Below are positions 4,649 through 31,843 of a stretch of 64,000 nucleotides of DNA, in pieces. Source of the stretch: Methanospirillum hungatei (GTDB taxonomy: Archaea; Halobacteriota; Methanomicrobia; Methanomicrobiales; Methanospirillaceae). Position 1 is the first letter of the stretch. Each line of letters opens with the position of its first letter. The stretch is from positions 1 to 64,000 of the forward strand of contig NZ_CP077107.1 of assembly GCF_019263745.1 (NCBI RefSeq), given 5' to 3'. The notes beneath the pieces were generated by a model that saw only the letters and a list, made by a program, of their open reading frames with translations, searched no databases and was not told the DNA's origin. The translations under genes and the position numbers were made by a program.

Positions 4649-6114
<1,466 letters not shown>

Positions 6115-6182
6115 AACGAAATGAAAGTAGTAGCAGATGCAGACAGACCATAGAGTTGCCAGTGTTCCGGAATGGAATCAGA

Positions 6183-6255
6183 GGGCTCGTAGCTCAGTTG
6201 GAAGAGCGCGGCGTTTGCAACGCCGAGGCCTGGGGTTCAAATCCCCACGGGTCCA
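6183..6255 (+). tRNA. tRNA-Ala (anticodon TGC) in the 16S-23S spacer
   Basis: A 73-nt cloverleaf with no intron and no encoded CCA. The acceptor stem starts GGGCTCG and closes with CGGGTCC plus discriminator A. The anticodon loop TTTGCAA gives TGC, and the T arm is GGGGTTCAAATCCCC. tRNA-Ala in this spacer is the usual euryarchaeal arrangement. Confidence 0.97.
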
Positions 6256-6369
6256 CTGGTGTTAGATTTTAGATGCACCCGGTCTGGCGACAGATCCGGG
6301 GAAGGGCTTGAGACCCCGTGAAACCGGGGCAATGATACGCTGTGTAAAGGAGACGCAGAAAGAGATCAC

Positions 6370-6406
6370 TAGGCGTTTCTGGACGTTACATGGGTTTGAA
6401 GAAACT
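6370..6406 (+). other. 5' strand of the pre-23S processing stem (partner 9331-9365)
   Basis: Two paired blocks flank small opposed unpaired segments. TGGGTTTGAAGAAACT (about 6391-6406) pairs with 9331-9345, and TAGGCGTTTCTGG (6370-6382) pairs with about 9353-9365 with small irregularities. The interior segments near 6383-6390 and 9346-9352 are the likely endonuclease site of the archaeal bulge-helix-bulge. Confidence 0.75.
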
Positions 6407-6408
6407 AC

Positions 6409-9327
<2,919 letters not shown>

Positions 9328-11376: not shown

Positions 11377-11477
11377 ATACATCATATTAAAAATTAACTT
11401 TTAGATTTCCATATAAGGAATTTAGATCAATAGGGCTTTTGGTAATATATCTATTGATTCGAGATCATTAGTACTTG

Positions 11478-12341
11478 ATGTACCTTCTTTTATGTCCCTG
11501 TATAAAAAATCCAGAATTACGTGCAAGGGGAATTACTCATCAAAATGATTTAGATGTCTTTTATCAGGTCTTATTACGATGTAAAACTTTTAAAATATCA
11601 ATAAAAATGCTTCCCTGTGCAGAGACTATTTTTCTTGGACCTAATCATGAACCTGGTCATTTTATTGGCAGACTGGATTCTCCAGATTTTTCTAATCTTA
11701 TATCTAAATTTGAAGATAAGATTCGTGATGAATGGAAAAATGAAGGTTTGCCATATGCGATTATTGGAGTTGATTCATCTCCGGTTTGTGGTGTCCGGTA
11801 CACCTGGTATGGTTCTGTAAATGGTTCTGATGCAAAGATCCCTGGGAGAGGGTTCTTTTTACAACGTTTTCCAGAAATACTTGCATATGATGTTTTTGAA
11901 GCAGCGTGTTGGAAAGTATATCTGGCTGCTCCGTTATTTTCTGAAGCTGAATGCGATTTTAATAGAAAATTAGCTGACATAATATCCGGCTATGCAATGC
12001 AGGTTCATCTTCCCCAGGATTGTGGAGATTCAGAGCATTCACGAACCATTTCTATTCAAAAAGAAATATTTGAAAAAAATCTACAAGCAATTGACAATGC
12101 AGATATTGTTGTTGCAGTAATAGATGGTGCGGATGCAGATTCAGGAACATCATGGGAGATGGGGTATGCATTTGCCCAAAGGAAAAAGATTATTTCACTC
12201 CGAACAGATTTCAGACATGTTGGTTATAATGAGCGGGTGAATCTGATGCTTGAGCAGTCATCAGTGGTTGTGAATGATATTTCATCACTTATTCAGGCCT
12301 TACCCTGTCCAATTCCGATACGGCCATTCAGAGATATGTAA
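11478..12341 (+). CDS. Fusion of a TudS/DUF523-like desulfidase domain and a nucleoside 2-deoxyribosyltransferase-like domain
   Basis: About 287 residues in two parts. The N-terminal part (about 1-140) has CPCIKNPELRARGI at the start and DSSPVCGVRYT near residue 100. These resemble the Cys signatures of DUF523/TudS proteins, which remove sulfur from thiouracil using an Fe-S cluster. The C-terminal part (about 147-287) has VYLAAPLF, DNADIVVAVIDG and SGTSWEMGYAFAQ, the motifs of nucleoside 2-deoxyribosyltransferases (Asp and Glu of the active site visible). A combined role in salvage or repair of thiolated or odd nucleosides is an inference. The start is ATG 11478; a TTG directly before it is also possible. 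Confidence 0.7.
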   Translation: MYLLLCPCIKNPELRARGITHQNDLDVFYQVLLRCKTFKISIKMLPCAETIFLGPNHEPGHFIGRLDSPDFSNLISKFEDKIRDEWKNEGLPYAIIGVDSSPVCGVRYTWYGSVNGSDAKIPGRGFFLQRFPEILAYDVFEAACWKVYLAAPLFSEAECDFNRKLADIISGYAMQVHLPQDCGDSEHSRTISIQKEIFEKNLQAIDNADIVVAVIDGADADSGTSWEMGYAFAQRKKIISLRTDFRHVGYNERVNLMLEQSSVVVNDISSLIQALPCPIPIRPFRDM

Positions 12342-12495: not shown

Positions 12496-12633
12496 TCATT
12501 TTTTTAAAAAATAGGTTTGAATCATTTTTATCGCACAGAATGATCCACACATTGTGCAGTTTGTATCGGTTGGAGTACCTCGTCCAGCCTCTTCCGGGTC
12601 CAGAGCATATATTGCCTGTTCCTGAAAATTCAT
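12496..12633 (-). CDS. Detached C-terminal Fe-S segment of the ThiC-like protein
   Basis: A 45-residue reading frame that starts with ATG overlapping the TGA stop of the ThiC-like gene (ATGA). It contains IYALDPEEAG and then CTMCGSFCAIKM, the cluster of three Cys with which ThiC holds its [4Fe-4S] cluster at the extreme C-terminus (here spaced CX2CX3C). The alignment to ThiC runs straight on from the upstream frame, so both halves derive from one gene. Either the shift is a recent mutation, or the segment is made as a separate peptide by coupled translation or by a -1 frameshift. The last residues after KMI look non-conserved. Confidence 0.65.
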   Translation of the reverse strand: MNFQEQAIYALDPEEAGRGTPTDTNCTMCGSFCAIKMIQTYFLKK

Positions 12634-13700
12634 TCGCGTTCTGTTCTCGGCGATATGTTTGTCCTGGTCGACACTCCGTACTTCATTGAATCTCCAATAT
12701 GGGCGGCAATACGAAAAGCCATGAGTCCTTCTTTCACTTCATCAGGAGTCGGGAGACTTTTATGTTCAGCCCTGGTGATGTAACATAGATAATCTGCCCC
12801 AGCTCCAGCGGAAAATGTTGCGCCAATTGCACCAGTAATATGATCATATCCCATGCCGACATCAGCTGGGAGTGGTCCTGCTACAAAGAGTGGAAAATCA
12901 GTCTTCTCTTTATAGTACCGGACACTTTCAGCTATTTTGTCTGCTCTGATATGTCCTCCGGCCCCTTCAATTATTACCTGAACTCCTTTCTTATGAGCCC
13001 GCTGTGCCAGCCTGATATTCTCTTCTATCTCCAGAATCTGTGCAGTATCCCGGCTATCATGGATACATCCTGATCTCATTGTATTTCCGAGAGAAAGGAC
13101 GATATTTTTAGATTTCAGTAAGGTAAGAATCTCATCAAAATGGGTAATATAGGGATTTTCCTGATTATTTTTTAGCATAAATGAAGTCATCATCGCTCCT
13201 CCTTTGGAAACAACTCCTAGTATTCGGGAACTGTGTTTCATTGCTTTTATTGTCTCAAATGAAGGGCAATGAAGAACCATTGATGAGATATCTTCTTTGA
13301 CTTGTTCTTTCAGATTTTCAATAATGATATCATCTGTGAGATGATCAAGGGTATTTTCTGCAACTGCCTGGTAGAGAGGGACTGTGGTCATGGGAAGTGT
13401 TGTGACACCAAGTATTGATCGTCTTATTTCTGGAATGTCTCCAGCAGTTGAGAGATCCGTAATAGTGTCTGCACCATAACATTCAGCAATTTTCGCTTTT
13501 TGTATCTCTTCTTCTTGAATACAATGACCGGATGAGGTACCAAGGTTTACATTTATTTTTGTCTTAAGTCCCCTTCCTATTGCAATCCCCTTATCCCCAC
13601 GGTACATAATTGCAATGGATCCTTTTTCCACTCCTTTCTGGACAAATTTATATGGCCTGTTTTCTAAATCGGATATTTTTCTTACTATTAAATTATTCAT
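12630..13700 (-). CDS. thiC: ThiC-like phosphomethylpyrimidine synthase, barrel part lacking its Fe-S tail
   Basis: 356 residues. ThiC converts aminoimidazole ribotide to the HMP-P moiety of thiamin by radical SAM chemistry. The sequence GTSSGHCIQEEEIQKAKIA, the GADTITDLSTAGD segment and TTLPMTTVPLYQA are classic ThiC barrel motifs, followed by EGAGGH and PLFVAGPLPADVG. The reading frame stops just before the Cys cluster, which continues in the -1 frame at 12633-12496. Without that cluster the protein could not do ThiC chemistry. A thiD kinase lies at 31046-31843. An inverted repeat at 13750-13777 is the likely operator of its promoter. It may be a pseudogene, a split gene or a frameshifted gene. 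Confidence 0.85.
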   Translation of the reverse strand: MNNLIVRKISDLENRPYKFVQKGVEKGSIAIMYRGDKGIAIGRGLKTKINVNLGTSSGHCIQEEEIQKAKIAECYGADTITDLSTAGDIPEIRRSILGVTTLPMTTVPLYQAVAENTLDHLTDDIIIENLKEQVKEDISSMVLHCPSFETIKAMKHSSRILGVVSKGGAMMTSFMLKNNQENPYITHFDEILTLLKSKNIVLSLGNTMRSGCIHDSRDTAQILEIEENIRLAQRAHKKGVQVIIEGAGGHIRADKIAESVRYYKEKTDFPLFVAGPLPADVGMGYDHITGAIGATFSAGAGADYLCYITRAEHKSLPTPDEVKEGLMAFRIAAHIGDSMKYGVSTRTNISPRTERE

Positions 13701-13749
13701 TTCTTTTTCTGGAGGTAGTTATTTTACAATATTTGGCAGTGCTGAAGTA

Positions 13750-13777
13750 TGCACCATATTATTTTGTTGTTGGTGCA
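13750..13777. promoter_or_regulatory. Inverted-repeat operator, copy 1 (TGCACCA-N14-TGGTGCA)
   Basis: Perfect 7-bp arms with a 14-bp AT-rich spacer that contains a TATA-like stretch, centred about 64 bp upstream of the ThiC-like start. Copy 2 has exactly the same arms and spacing, which makes chance unlikely. Confidence 0.75.
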
Positions 13778-13936
13778 TGTCATTTTCTTGGATCTCATTC
13801 TATCTACAACCCTATGAGGATAAAGAGCAATCCAGAAGACTTACAATATGGCTTCCATGATGATAATACTAAATTACTATGATTATATACTGGATAAAAT
13901 GGAAACACATTTACTCTAAAAGAGCCGAAACACTTA

Positions 13937-13967
13937 TGGTGCACCATATTACAATAGTATTGGTGCA
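13937..13967. promoter_or_regulatory. Inverted-repeat operator, copy 2, with an extra overlapping palindrome
   Basis: TGCACCA-N14-TGGTGCA at 13940-13967, the same geometry as copy 1. Its left arm is also the right half of a compact palindrome TGGTGCACCA at 13937-13946, giving three half-sites. It lies between the two divergent genes, about 190 bp from copy 1 and 200 bp before the mptG-fusion start. Confidence 0.75.
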
Positions 13968-14144
13968 CTATCCTCTAACAGCGAAACATGCACCTAGCAC
14001 AGTTTCTTCTGTACAGATCAATTCTGGTAACCCTGGAAAAATCGTACCGATTTTGTAAATTATTAGGTGAATCCATTTTTTATGAGGTCTTTATTTCTTA
14101 TTCTATAATTATGAAACATTTTTCAATACACATCACTCTGATAT

Positions 14145-14151
14145 TGGTGCA
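14145..14151 (+). promoter_or_regulatory. Third TGGTGCA half-site beside the start codon
   Basis: A single TGGTGCA ends 3 nt before the ATG of the chorismate lyase-MptG fusion and is embedded in ATATTGGTGCAATA. It could place a bound repressor over the transcription start. The remainder of 13701-14154 holds no supported gene; the short frames seen there lack any family signature. Confidence 0.5.
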
Positions 14152-14154
14152 ATA

Positions 14155-15690
14155 ATGATGCAGACATCGGTTCTGGAACTTATTAATAAGATAGAACAAG
14201 AATCTGGACAATTAACAAATCCTGAGCGTGCTCTTCTTATAACAGATGGTTCAGTTACCCGGCTTTTGGAGGCATTTGGTAATGCACCAGTCGGTGTCAG
14301 AACAATACAGCAGAATATTATTCAGGCATCAGAAAAAATCGCAGAAATTCTTGAAGTTAAACCCGGTGAAGATGTGAATTTTCGGGAAGTGGATCTGTAC
14401 AATAAAAATAATAATCGTGTTCTGATTCATGCTATCTCATATGCACCATTGAAACATCTTCCGGCGGGTGCAATAACCCGGCTTATGAAAGAAGATGAAC
14501 CGATTGGTATGATAATGCGTGATGAAAAGATGGAATCAAGGAGAGAAATCTTATCAATACAAAAAATTTCTCTCCCATCAGATGACCTGAAAAGGAATCA
14601 AATGGCGAAATTTAATTTGAGCAGATCATACCGGATAATTCATAATTCACGACCGATATTTTTTATTGAAGAACAAATCCCTTTCCCTCTTTTTACTGAG
14701 GATACTGTGGTTAGAGTGATTACTCCTTCTCGACTTCACATCGGGCTTCTTGATATGAATGGTTCAGGAGGCAGAGTCGATGGTGGTTCTGGTATAACTC
14801 TGGAAGATCCTGGTTTTATTTTTGAAATATCAGAAGCAGATACCTTTTCCCTGACCTCACAGGAACCAGAGGTTGCATACCAGGTGCAGCCAATCCTTGA
14901 AAAATTAAACATGAATGGATTGTCGATACCTCCGGTACATATTCACATTCAACAATCTATTCCCTTTCATTTTGGGCTTGGAAGTGGAACCCAGGCAGCT
15001 CTTGGAATTGCGGCCGGGATTGGGACAATGATTGGAGCGAATTTTTCTACAGATGCTCTTATTGCCTTATCCGGAAGGGGAGGAACTTCAGGGATAGGAA
15101 CAAGAGCCTTTTTTATGGGAGGATTACTCGTTGATGCTGGTCACCGGTTTGGCCCTGGCAGAAAGAAGGATTCTTTCGCACCATCAGCCTCATCATCAGG
15201 TGCAGGAGCAGCTCCTCTGGTTGGCCGGTATAATATCCCGAAAGATTGGAATTTCGTACTTGCAATACCTGATGGATTGGCAGAAATTCACGGTCAGTTG
15301 GAATATGATATGTTTCAGAGATACTGTCCTGTTCCACAACATGAAGTTCAGGCTCTTTCTCATATTCTTCTTATGAAACTGATCCCTTCTGTAATCGAAG
15401 AAGATCTGGAACAATTCGGAGAGGCAATTAATGATTTCCAGAATTATGGGTTTAAAAAATGTGAAATCAGTCTTCAGTCACCGGTTATTACGGATATCAT
15501 TGATGCCATGAGGGATGCCGGTGCAGCTGGGGTAGGTATGAGTTCATTTGGACCGGTAGTGTATGGGGTATGTGATTCGAATACGTCTGCTATCATTTCT
15601 TCAGCTCAAAGGATTATGAATCAATGGAAAGGCGGAAAAACGATCTGCACGAAGGGGAGAAATAGGGGTGCTGATATTATGAAAACCTAA
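14155..15690 (+). CDS. mptG: Chorismate lyase-like domain fused to beta-ribofuranosylaminobenzene 5'-phosphate synthase
   Basis: 511 residues with two enzymes of one pathway. Residues about 1-175 match the archaeal chorismate pyruvate-lyase family (DUF98): ALLITDGSVTRLLE, a REV.LY strand, and PIGMIMRDEKMESRREI. Residues about 185-500 are a GHMP-kinase-fold beta-RFAP synthase, with TPSRLHIGLLDMNG, the Gly-rich GLGSGTQAALG near 280, and the C-terminal GVGMSSFGPVVYG. Known chemistry: the lyase makes 4-hydroxybenzoate from chorismate, and the synthase couples it to PRPP with loss of CO2 in methanopterin synthesis. Fusion would hand the intermediate on directly. It is divergent from the ThiC-like gene, with shared operators. 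Confidence 0.88.
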   Translation: MMQTSVLELINKIEQESGQLTNPERALLITDGSVTRLLEAFGNAPVGVRTIQQNIIQASEKIAEILEVKPGEDVNFREVDLYNKNNNRVLIHAISYAPLKHLPAGAITRLMKEDEPIGMIMRDEKMESRREILSIQKISLPSDDLKRNQMAKFNLSRSYRIIHNSRPIFFIEEQIPFPLFTEDTVVRVITPSRLHIGLLDMNGSGGRVDGGSGITLEDPGFIFEISEADTFSLTSQEPEVAYQVQPILEKLNMNGLSIPPVHIHIQQSIPFHFGLGSGTQAALGIAAGIGTMIGANFSTDALIALSGRGGTSGIGTRAFFMGGLLVDAGHRFGPGRKKDSFAPSASSSGAGAAPLVGRYNIPKDWNFVLAIPDGLAEIHGQLEYDMFQRYCPVPQHEVQALSHILLMKLIPSVIEEDLEQFGEAINDFQNYGFKKCEISLQSPVITDIIDAMRDAGAAGVGMSSFGPVVYGVCDSNTSAIISSAQRIMNQWKGGKTICTKGRNRGADIMKT

Positions 15691-19512: not shown

Positions 19513-21183
19513 TCATGTATCTGCTGGTTTTTCTTCATCCATAAAAAGGGGGACATTTGAAAATATGTTTACATCAAAAACTCCCTTGGTTGTTACCCGT
19601 AACTCAGGAATTACTGATAATGCCAGAAAGGAAAGATACATGAAGGGATCTTTGATTGCGCCACACGCTTTTGTGAGGTGATGAATACTCTCTAAACCTT
19701 TATGCACGTTTTCATACGGTAATTCTGACATTAATCCGGCAAGAGACAGAGGTAAACAGACCTCCTCCTTCCCATTCAGGGCAACCATCGCCCCCTTATT
19801 TTTTACTACCATCGCAATCGCAGAGATGATTTCATTATCACTTGTCCCGACTGCGATGATATTATGGGAGTCATGTGAAACACTCGATGCCATAGCACCG
19901 CTTGTAAGACCAAGACCCCTGACCAGCCCTACTCCAATATTTTCCGGATAATATCGTGAAACAACCACAATTTTTAATATATCCCTTTTTAAATCTGGAA
20001 TTTCATCACTTGAAAGTTGGATATATTCTGCCTTTGTTCCTATCTGTCCTTCTTGTATCTTGACAACCCGTGCAGTTCCTGTTCCGGTTATCCTGATCTC
20101 TTCCGGGGATGGAATTTTAGCATGGAATGGCCAGTTTTTTAGGGTATGAGTTTTTTCTTTCCTAAAATGTTCAGGGAGTACTAATCTCCCGTTTTTATAT
20201 GTAGCATGAACGTTACACTTTTTTATGTCATCTATGACACAGAAATCAGCAATACGCCCGGCACTTATTGCACCTCTGTCATACAACCGAAAACGTTCTG
20301 CAGGTGAGAGCGTTGCCATTCTGTATGCAAGTTCCGGTTCACATCCTTCTCCAATCGCTTTTCTGATACAATCATCAATATGGCCGGATGTAACTAGCAT
20401 ATCTGCATGCCGGTCATCAGTACAGAAACTACAGCGGGATGATGAACATGCGTTAACCAGAGGAATGAGGGTATGCAGATTTCGTTCAGTCGAGCCTTCC
20501 CTGATGAATAGAAACATTCCCTTCTGAAGTTTTTCTTTCCCTTCGCTTTTTACAGTAGTTTCATGATCGCTTTGAAGTCCGGTGGCAATATATTGATCAA
20601 GCAAAGTTCCGGTCAGAAAAGGAGCATGTCCGTCACGAATGGAGGTCAGGATTAATTTTTCCATAACTAAGGGTTCCTCTGATAACACTCCGGGCACGTT
20701 CATCATTTCACCCAGACCCAGAACACCATCTCTGTTCATGAAGGGAAGAAGTAAATCAGCCGTAAGCGTTATTGCACATTCGTCGATAGGGGTTGCAGCA
20801 ACACAGGAAGGCAACATAACCATGATATCCAGCGGCTGATTTTCATGTGCCTGAAGTATATATTCTATTCCTGCAGTTCCACATACATTCGCAATTTCAT
20901 GAGGATCTGCAACAACCGTGGTAGTTCCATGCTGCATAACGAGCCGTGCATATTCATATGGGGTGAGTAATGAACTTTCAATATGAACATGAGCATCAAT
21001 GAAACCGGGGCAGACATAAGAGGATTTGAGATCTACCTCTTCTTTTCCTGAATACCCTGGTCCGGTACCTATAAATATCCCATTCCTGACAGCAAAATCT
21101 TCATTTAGCCATTCACAGGTATATGGGTTGAAAATAATCCCGTTTTTAAATATTATATCTGCTGATTCTTCCCATCTGGTCAT
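19513..21183 (-). CDS. ade: Adenine deaminase
   Basis: 556 residues. Converts adenine to hypoxanthine and ammonia in purine salvage. Amidohydrolase fold: DAHVHIESSLLTP (metal-binding His pair near residue 64), HGTTTVVADPHEIANV, ELGEMMNVPGV-like segment, and CTDDRHADML with the metal Asp. The C-terminal domain has GLGLTSGAMASSVSHDSHNIIAVG, which is typical of this deaminase. The neighbouring divergent gene is a purine permease, so uptake and deamination are probably controlled together. Confidence 0.95.
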   Translation of the reverse strand: MTRWEESADIIFKNGIIFNPYTCEWLNEDFAVRNGIFIGTGPGYSGKEEVDLKSSYVCPGFIDAHVHIESSLLTPYEYARLVMQHGTTTVVADPHEIANVCGTAGIEYILQAHENQPLDIMVMLPSCVAATPIDECAITLTADLLLPFMNRDGVLGLGEMMNVPGVLSEEPLVMEKLILTSIRDGHAPFLTGTLLDQYIATGLQSDHETTVKSEGKEKLQKGMFLFIREGSTERNLHTLIPLVNACSSSRCSFCTDDRHADMLVTSGHIDDCIRKAIGEGCEPELAYRMATLSPAERFRLYDRGAISAGRIADFCVIDDIKKCNVHATYKNGRLVLPEHFRKEKTHTLKNWPFHAKIPSPEEIRITGTGTARVVKIQEGQIGTKAEYIQLSSDEIPDLKRDILKIVVVSRYYPENIGVGLVRGLGLTSGAMASSVSHDSHNIIAVGTSDNEIISAIAMVVKNKGAMVALNGKEEVCLPLSLAGLMSELPYENVHKGLESIHHLTKACGAIKDPFMYLSFLALSVIPELRVTTKGVFDVNIFSNVPLFMDEEKPADT

Positions 21184-22580: not shown

Positions 22581-23099
22581 GTGACAAATCCGGTTGATGA
22601 GCATATACAGCATTTTCACACATTGCTGGAGAGAGATGGTCATATCCGGATAAAGGATATTGAACCTGGTCACGCGGCGATGGATTCCTCCTTGCATTAT
22701 CATGCCGGTTCATCATCCATTAACGTATCTGCTTTTTATTATGCTGCGATGCGGCTTCCGAGGTGCATTGATTGTGTTCGGACCATTATTATCAGCTCAG
22801 ATCTGCAGAGTATGGTTGATTCCGGATTTCCGATATATGACTGGGAGGAGGTCAGGACAGAGGGGAGAAGAAGGAAGTGTTATTATGACAAAAATTTTCT
22901 ACTCGCCGCCCATATGTCAAGTGTTTCTGATATTGATGATATTATCACAATTATTACCACTTTTCAGATAGAATGGAATAAGATCCATGATTGCTTGAGC
23001 CGGCCTGATGAATATTCAAAAATCAAGATTTTTCATCAGATGAATTTGTATCTAACCGGATTAGAACTGTTTCAAAAAAAAATTGAACATCTCTCATAA
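22581..23099 (+). CDS. N-terminal part of a split, uncharacterised protein
   Basis: About 172 residues, not assigned to a known enzyme. The conserved-looking segment is GRRRKCYYDKNFLLAAHMSSVSDIDDIITIITTFQIEWNKIHDCLSRPDEY, so it is not random sequence. GTG 22581 is preceded by GGGGTG; an in-frame GTG at 22569 is also possible. The frame ends at TAA 23097-23099, while the following gene opens in the +1 frame at 23065, and the two overlap across an A9 run (23074-23082). The sense of the two halves runs on smoothly (EHLS then HNDWKLFLK), so they probably form one protein of about 560 residues. Confidence 0.6.
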   Translation: MTNPVDEHIQHFHTLLERDGHIRIKDIEPGHAAMDSSLHYHAGSSSINVSAFYYAAMRLPRCIDCVRTIIISSDLQSMVDSGFPIYDWEEVRTEGRRRKCYYDKNFLLAAHMSSVSDIDDIITIITTFQIEWNKIHDCLSRPDEYSKIKIFHQMNLYLTGLELFQKKIEHLS

Positions 23100-31045: not shown

Positions 31046-31843
31046 TTATCTATAAAGTGGTTGAATCATTTTAAATCCGGATGTTCCAGAAATTGCATGT
31101 TTTATCCCGTTACTGATGAGTTCTTTTGCTTTTTCACATGCATGAGCATCATCAAAACCCTGAGCGATATACCCGGTTATTGCTGCTGAAAATGCACATC
31201 CGGATCCATGAACTTCATATGGTAAGCGTGCATGCGTGAACCGACTCACATCATTTTTTCTTATTAAGAGATCAATGGCTTCATTTCCGGTTCCGTGTCC
31301 CCCTTTTATGATTACCTGCTGAGCTCCAAGATCGATGATATTTTTACCCGCAATAAGCATCTCCTCCTCACAGGAGATGGTCATTTTAGCGAGAATTTCT
31401 GCTTCAGGGATATTTGGGGTGATCAAATGAGCTCTGGGGGTGAGTGTTTCACGTATATCACGGACTGCATCTTCATCAAGAAGTCGATACCCGGATGTGG
31501 AGACCATGACTGGATCAACTACCAAAGGGATTGTTGTAGGTAATGCCTTATCAACGGCCTTGATAATTCTTGAATTAGCGAGCATTCCGGTTTTTACTGC
31601 TCCGGGAGTCATGTCTTCAAAAACAGTTTGGATTTGTGTTTTTACAATTTTCGGCTCTATTGGCCAAGATCCGGTTACCTTTGCAGCATTTTGAGCTGTT
31701 AATGCGGTAATAACAGCCATCCCCCAAACACCCGTCATGGAAAACGTCTTCAGGTCCATCTGGACACCAGCACCTCCGGATGGATCTGATCCTGCAATAG
31801 AGAGAGCTGAGAAATATTCTTTATTCTGAAACTGTGGTGTCAT
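31046..31843 (-). CDS. thiD: Hydroxymethylpyrimidine/phosphomethylpyrimidine kinase
   Basis: 265 residues. Phosphorylates HMP and HMP-P for thiamin synthesis; a ribokinase-fold enzyme. ALSIAGSDPSGGAGVQMDLKTF at the N-terminus is the substrate-binding signature, DPVMVSTSG follows near 110, and the anion-hole loop HGSGCAFSAAITGYIAQG near 220 has the catalytic Cys typical of ThiD. There is no C-terminal ThiN/ThiE domain. It lies downstream of proS on the same strand. Its substrate could come from the ThiC-like gene at 12630-13700 if that gene is active. Confidence 0.95.
   Translation of the reverse strand: MTPQFQNKEYFSALSIAGSDPSGGAGVQMDLKTFSMTGVWGMAVITALTAQNAAKVTGSWPIEPKIVKTQIQTVFEDMTPGAVKTGMLANSRIIKAVDKALPTTIPLVVDPVMVSTSGYRLLDEDAVRDIRETLTPRAHLITPNIPEAEILAKMTISCEEEMLIAGKNIIDLGAQQVIIKGGHGTGNEAIDLLIRKNDVSRFTHARLPYEVHGSGCAFSAAITGYIAQGFDDAHACEKAKELISNGIKHAISGTSGFKMIQPLYR

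Follow-up and report, generated by a model that had tools for sequence, protein, structure and literature searches.

The break in the third thiC gene (thiC3) of the methanogenic archaeon Methanospirillum hungatei GP1 most likely represents ordinary recent gene loss and no new way of making ThiC, the vitamin-B1 enzyme phosphomethylpyrimidine synthase, which turns AIR into HMP-P (PF01964; NF009895; TIGR00190; PDB codes 3EPM, 4N7Q, 4S25). The gene is probably a null allele of recent origin, created by a one-base deletion in a third ThiC paralogue that is dispensable. Three explanations had been put forward in the initial annotation: a null mutation, programmed −1 frameshifting and a two-peptide enzyme. 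The null mutation has the best support, as the orthologues are in one frame and the related loci that were inspected, from Methanospirillum strain JF-1, isolate M59, M. stamsii and more distant relatives, are all unbroken at the GP1 site. The window analysed here is a stretch of 64,000 nucleotides, bases 1–64000 of the GP1 genome, which consists of one contig of 3,393,136 bp; according to a later report (PMC11346949), the strain has since been reclassified as M. purgamenti. Feature coordinates are collected in Table 1.

Table 1. Coordinates of thiC3 and its neighbours in the window, and of two further broken ThiC3 genes (locus named before the colon).
Feature	Position	Strand	Basis and remarks
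thiC3, in-frame part	12671..13700	−	ORF, PF01964/NF009895 matches and one-frame orthologues; (β/α)8 barrel to ...AAHIGDSMKYGV, then lesion
Missing-base site, within Ser codon	12669..12670	−	DNA of four Methanospirillum orthologues, aligned with MAFFT
Out-of-frame read-through of the 356-aa ORF (...TRTNISPRTERE), TGA 12632–12630	12630..12669	−	
Displaced 3' end of thiC3, −1 frame, stop TGA 12498–12496	12496..12669	−	PF01964 match and alignment
ATG overlapping the TGA; internal in-frame Met codon in relatives, no conserved start	12631..12633	−	Alignment
Divergent neighbour	14155..15690	+	PF01947, PF00288, PF08544; chorismate-lyase-like (Rv2949c) domain fused to GHMP-kinase domain
Convergent downstream neighbour, nucleoside 2-deoxyribosyltransferase family	11475..12341	+	PF05014; also in JF-1, M59 and M. 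stamsii
Broken ThiC3, genome G033	L092:6751-7999	−	
Broken ThiC3, genome G019	L093:6199-7232	−	

A 356-aa ThiC-family ORF extends on the minus strand from the ATG at 13700 to the TGA at 12632–12630, and its match to ThiC reaches profile position ~360 of 430 (NF009895, E = 1.2e-118; PF01964, E = 7e-118). The −1 frame is open from 12738 to the TGA at 12498–12496, overlapping the first by 109 nt, and gave a separate ThiC match in a whole-genome profile search (12517–12675, PF01964 positions 362–419, E = 2e-7). Because the ORF and the tail match ThiC in succession, they constitute a single gene in two frames and no chance pairing. The displaced tail, which reads MNFQEQAIYALDPEEAGRGTPTDTNCTMCGSFCAIKMIQTYFLKK (45 aa) when translated from the ATG at 12633–12631, encodes the remaining helix bundle, the tether, the CTMCGSFC cluster loop and the C-terminal helix; the CX2CX4C motif is present, but in the −1 frame beyond the stop and not in the frame of the barrel. 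Both the end of the barrel at this TGA and the CTMCGSFC tail in the −1 frame, starting from an ATG that overlaps the stop, had been described in the initial annotation and are borne out by the open frames and profile matches. The frame itself is broken further upstream, however, at ~12670/12669 (between GGAGTGTC and GACCAGG), about 36 nt before the ATGA, so that the final 12 residues of the 356-aa product are read out of frame.

The position of the break was obtained from a MAFFT alignment of the DNA against its JF-1 (L075), M59 (L078) and M. stamsii (L079) orthologues, a comparison with related Methanospirillum that the initial annotation had suggested. All three are in one frame, open over 417, 414 and 409 codons, respectively, and carry one base more than GP1. 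The GP1 gene is collinear with them throughout, and the missing base at 12670/12669 is the sole indel. The codons at the lesion are GTG TC- GAC CAG in GP1, TTG TCT GAA AAG in JF-1, TTG TCT GAA CAG in M59, and TTG TCA GAT AAA in M. stamsii, preceded by GGA in both GP1 and M59; the letters of the GP1 assembly across the lesion are GTGTCGACCAGG. In each of the three relatives, the ATG of the ATGA is the first codon of a Met-Asn pair (ATG AAT) that is read in frame, and the overlap is thus a by-product of this codon pair. When the M59 gene is read out of frame it meets an identical TGA.

In the proposed mechanism, one base would have been lost from the Ser codon between 12670 and 12669, whereupon translation would depart from the frame after ...MKYGVS and terminate about 37 nt further on, at TGA 12632–12630. 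The predicted product is a barrel devoid of the helix bundle, the tether and the CX2CX4C loop carrying the [4Fe-4S] cluster, and would for this reason be incapable of radical-SAM chemistry, while the remainder of the gene would so far have escaped decay. In known ThiC structures, the cluster is bound by a C-terminal loop (Fenwick et al. 2015, PMC4389238). This loop comes after a bundle of three helices and a tether of 12 residues, and reaches into the partner protomer (PMC4389238). Since the GP1 product loses all three of these elements, it should be inactive. The change resembles that expected of a pseudogene: it is a single disabling difference from intact orthologues, in a gene that is dispensable or redundant.

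Across Methanomicrobiales, ThiC3 is dispensable. Among 41 genomes the gene is intact in 18, broken in three, each at a different site, and absent from 20, which include complete genomes as well as some incomplete ones. Besides GP1, the independently broken copies are those of G033, frameshifted near codon 288, and of G019, where a frameshift is combined with a loss of ~50 residues; both genomes are drafts. In the genomes of the other ThiC3 loci tested, at least one further full-length ThiC was found in 11 of 11, and two in 9 of 11. GP1 itself has ThiC1 (C1:2910308-2911555) and ThiC2 (C1:2104263-2105465), each open over 427 codons, with the cluster motifs CTMCGDYC and CSMCGDLC in these two intact copies. 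They are paralogues of the window copy, to which they are 42% and 37% identical, respectively; whereas ThiC1 is nearly the same in GP1 and JF-1, ThiC3 differs much between the two. A ThiD gene (PF08543), the only one found in GP1, is located at 31076–31786 (−) in the window, 17 kb from the broken thiC3, and ThiE is encoded at 2480640. The statement in the initial annotation that ThiC cannot act without its cluster therefore applies to the window copy only and not to the strain, which has two other intact ThiC genes. Given these two genes together with ThiD and ThiE, thiamin synthesis in GP1 is expected to be unaffected, and the thiamin requirement that had been suggested for the strain is not anticipated.

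The sequence downstream of the break shows little sign of decay. Between GP1 and JF-1, dN/dS is 0.13 for the body of the gene and 0.28 for the 56-codon tail, and CTMCGSFC is intact. Changes in the tail are distributed 16:4 between GP1 and JF-1, compared with 41:34 in the body (p = 0.04, uncorrected). About half of the amino-acid differences in the GP1 tail are common to M. stamsii, and are consequently not derived in GP1. We also considered that selection might be relaxed on the tail alone while a truncated barrel stayed functional, and rejected this, as the excess is weak (p = 0.04–0.06, uncorrected) and about half of the amino-acid differences in the tail are common to M. stamsii. A very recent true deletion fits the low decay, the tail excess and the ordinary local frameshift rate described below.

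The main rival explanation is an assembly error, in which the chromosome does contain the base and ThiC3 is an ordinary one-frame protein. A nearly undecayed tail is also what would be expected of an intact gene with a sequence error, and apart from one base the gene looks intact, keeping the cluster motif and every strongly conserved residue of the tail. The site of the missing base adjoins a CCAGG motif, and methylation in a CCAGG-type context can upset Nanopore basecalls. The long reads used for GP1 were Nanopore R9 (PMC8359780). On the other hand, the genome (CP077107.1) is a hybrid Unicycler assembly in which these were combined with Illumina reads (PMC8359780); polishing drew on 0.54 Gb of the Illumina data (about 160x). 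The initial annotation had noted that the site contains no homopolymer, and this is confirmed for the 109-nt overlap, where the lone run of at least four is a TTTT at 12717. Frameshifts are no more frequent in GP1 than in JF-1: one of 77 conserved genes (thiC3) is affected in ~204 kb of GP1, comprising the window and about 140 kb beyond, and one of 76 in ~260 kb of JF-1. With the hybrid polishing (PMC8359780) and this local rate, the caution expressed earlier against a simple sequencing slip appears reasonable. ThiC3 is, moreover, broken in two other genomes. We infer that the GP1 chromosome really lacks the base, and regard an assembly error as unlikely.

The frameshift comparison also allowed us to reject the idea of a generally error-riddled assembly, since eight GP1 and four JF-1 stop-interrupted matches turned out on inspection to be over-extended starts or shadow ORFs. 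The A9 run mentioned in the initial annotation is present at 23074–23082 of the window, where the comparison with JF-1 flagged no frameshift in a conserved gene. The frameshifted JF-1 gene (L121, about C1:1286220-1287870; lesion near codon 220) is the counterpart of a 556-aa GP1 gene at 19516–21183 (−), which by eye we take to be adenine-deaminase-like, and the GP1 copy is intact.

The two readings in which the broken gene would still give a working enzyme are, even taken together, very improbable, and we reject them on conservation, site and signal. In a two-peptide ThiC, the barrel and the cluster peptide would be made separately by coupled translation at the ATGA and would then reassemble, which the domain-swapped dimer might permit. 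The ATGA overlap with the 45-aa tail ORF is compatible with such an arrangement, as is the known insertion of the ThiC cluster domain into the active site of the neighbouring protomer (PMC4389238). However, the ATG is an internal codon in the three congeners and the ATGA a passive result of their Met-Asn pair. With the break about 36 nt upstream, DQDKHIAENRTR would also be missing from the tail peptide, and the barrel would carry 12 foreign residues at its end; no relative is split at this point. An SD-like motif is absent from the 18 nt upstream of the ATG at 12633, although this is a weak point, since the gene's own ATG likewise has none. We therefore consider the two-peptide reading highly improbable. 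A programmed −1 frameshift giving full-length ThiC3 is more improbable still: a −1 slip anywhere inside the overlap would join the frames, but neither an X_XXY_YYZ heptamer nor a suitable run was found in the 109 nt, the break lies upstream of the ATGA, and the intact orthologues are all shift-free, which leaves nothing conserved to program.

A maximum-likelihood tree built from 91 ThiC proteins (55 ThiC3 and 36 ThiC1/2) separates ThiC3 from ThiC1 and ThiC2 by a branch of length 1.11 with 100/100 support, and within the 55-sequence ThiC3 set the window gene groups with JF-1, and then with M59 and M. stamsii. The EGPGH motif found in 36/36 ThiC1/2 is replaced by [EN]GxGGH in 55/55 ThiC3, where the loop is one residue longer; the window gene has EGAGGH at this position. 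The longer loop may signify a changed active site in ThiC3.

The usual operon-like row of genes in Methanosarcinaceae and Methanoperedens consists of a gene that we take by eye, from its sequence, to be GlyA-like, followed by FolD (PF00763/PF02882), a pterin-binding protein (PF00809), the MetV C-terminal domain (PF12225), MetF (PF02219), ThiC3 and a CofE-like ligase (PF01996). A MetF-family neighbour is present in 27 ThiC3 loci and a CofE-like one in 28; ThiC3 is situated directly after MetF and before the CofE-like glutamate ligase in L007, L008, L009, L011, L014, L024, L029, L031, L039 and similar loci (ThiC3 at about 5950–7190). In Methanospirillum, the chorismate-lyase-like/GHMP fusion is divergent from thiC3 in GP1, JF-1 and M59, and resembles the β-RFA-P synthase step of methanopterin synthesis. 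The operon neighbours and this divergent gene suggest that ThiC3 may serve pterin or C1 metabolism. We tentatively propose that ThiC3 is a distinct, apparently uncharacterised clade other than the thiamin ThiC. Its members might convert AIR or a similar nucleotide into a different product that is used in folate, methanopterin or C1 metabolism, and GP1 would in that case be a natural thiC3-null strain.

Several TGGTGCA/TGCACCA words occur in the spacer that separates thiC3 from its divergent neighbour (13730–14150), together with a perfect palindrome, GGTGCACC, at 13938–13945; similar words are found upstream in JF-1 and M59. These elements are possibly an operator, at a count that is not significant. 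A thiamin operator was rejected for GGTGCACC, which occurs twice in the window against 0.6 expected, a number reached by 13 of 100 shuffles.

On its own the break matters little, being one further frameshifted paralogue that is worth an annotation note, and a warning that GP1 should not be called a thiamin auxotroph, nor its ThiC a split enzyme. A more interesting lead is the ThiC3 clade. It occurs alongside other ThiC genes in all the genomes checked, its EGPGH loop is changed, and in Methanosarcinales it is located in folate/C1 operons. If ThiC3 does make a product other than HMP-P, it would be an additional unassigned radical enzyme in archaeal pterin metabolism, for which GP1 would provide a natural null to compare with JF-1.

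Compared with characterised ThiC, the window gene belongs to the same family along its full length when both frames are read, and its tail has a ThiC-type CX2CX4C motif, but its reading frame is interrupted ahead of the cluster domain. The ThiC3 of JF-1, which is intact, scores above the NF009895 cut-off (457.6 versus 410) and below that of TIGR00190 (378.7 versus 460). BzaF and BzaB are ThiC-family enzymes of anaerobic benzimidazole synthesis (TIGR04386). The TIGR04386 model scores ThiC3 at 296–369 bits (window ORF 296, JF-1 325), far under its 700-bit cut-off, and an assignment of the window gene as BzaB was therefore rejected. BzaF is a relative of ThiC that uses the same substrate, AIR, to give a different product (PMC11117688), and shows that ThiC paralogues can change function. 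An H4F anabolic cluster of MetF, MetV, FolP, FolD, GlyA and PurN has been described for Methanosarcinaceae and ANME in a report whose main text does not mention a ThiC in it (PMC9012536). Whereas thiC3 of Methanospirillum lies outside any such cluster, the ThiC3 orthologues of Methanolobus, Methanococcoides, Methanohalophilus and Methanoperedens are located in it, directly after MetF.
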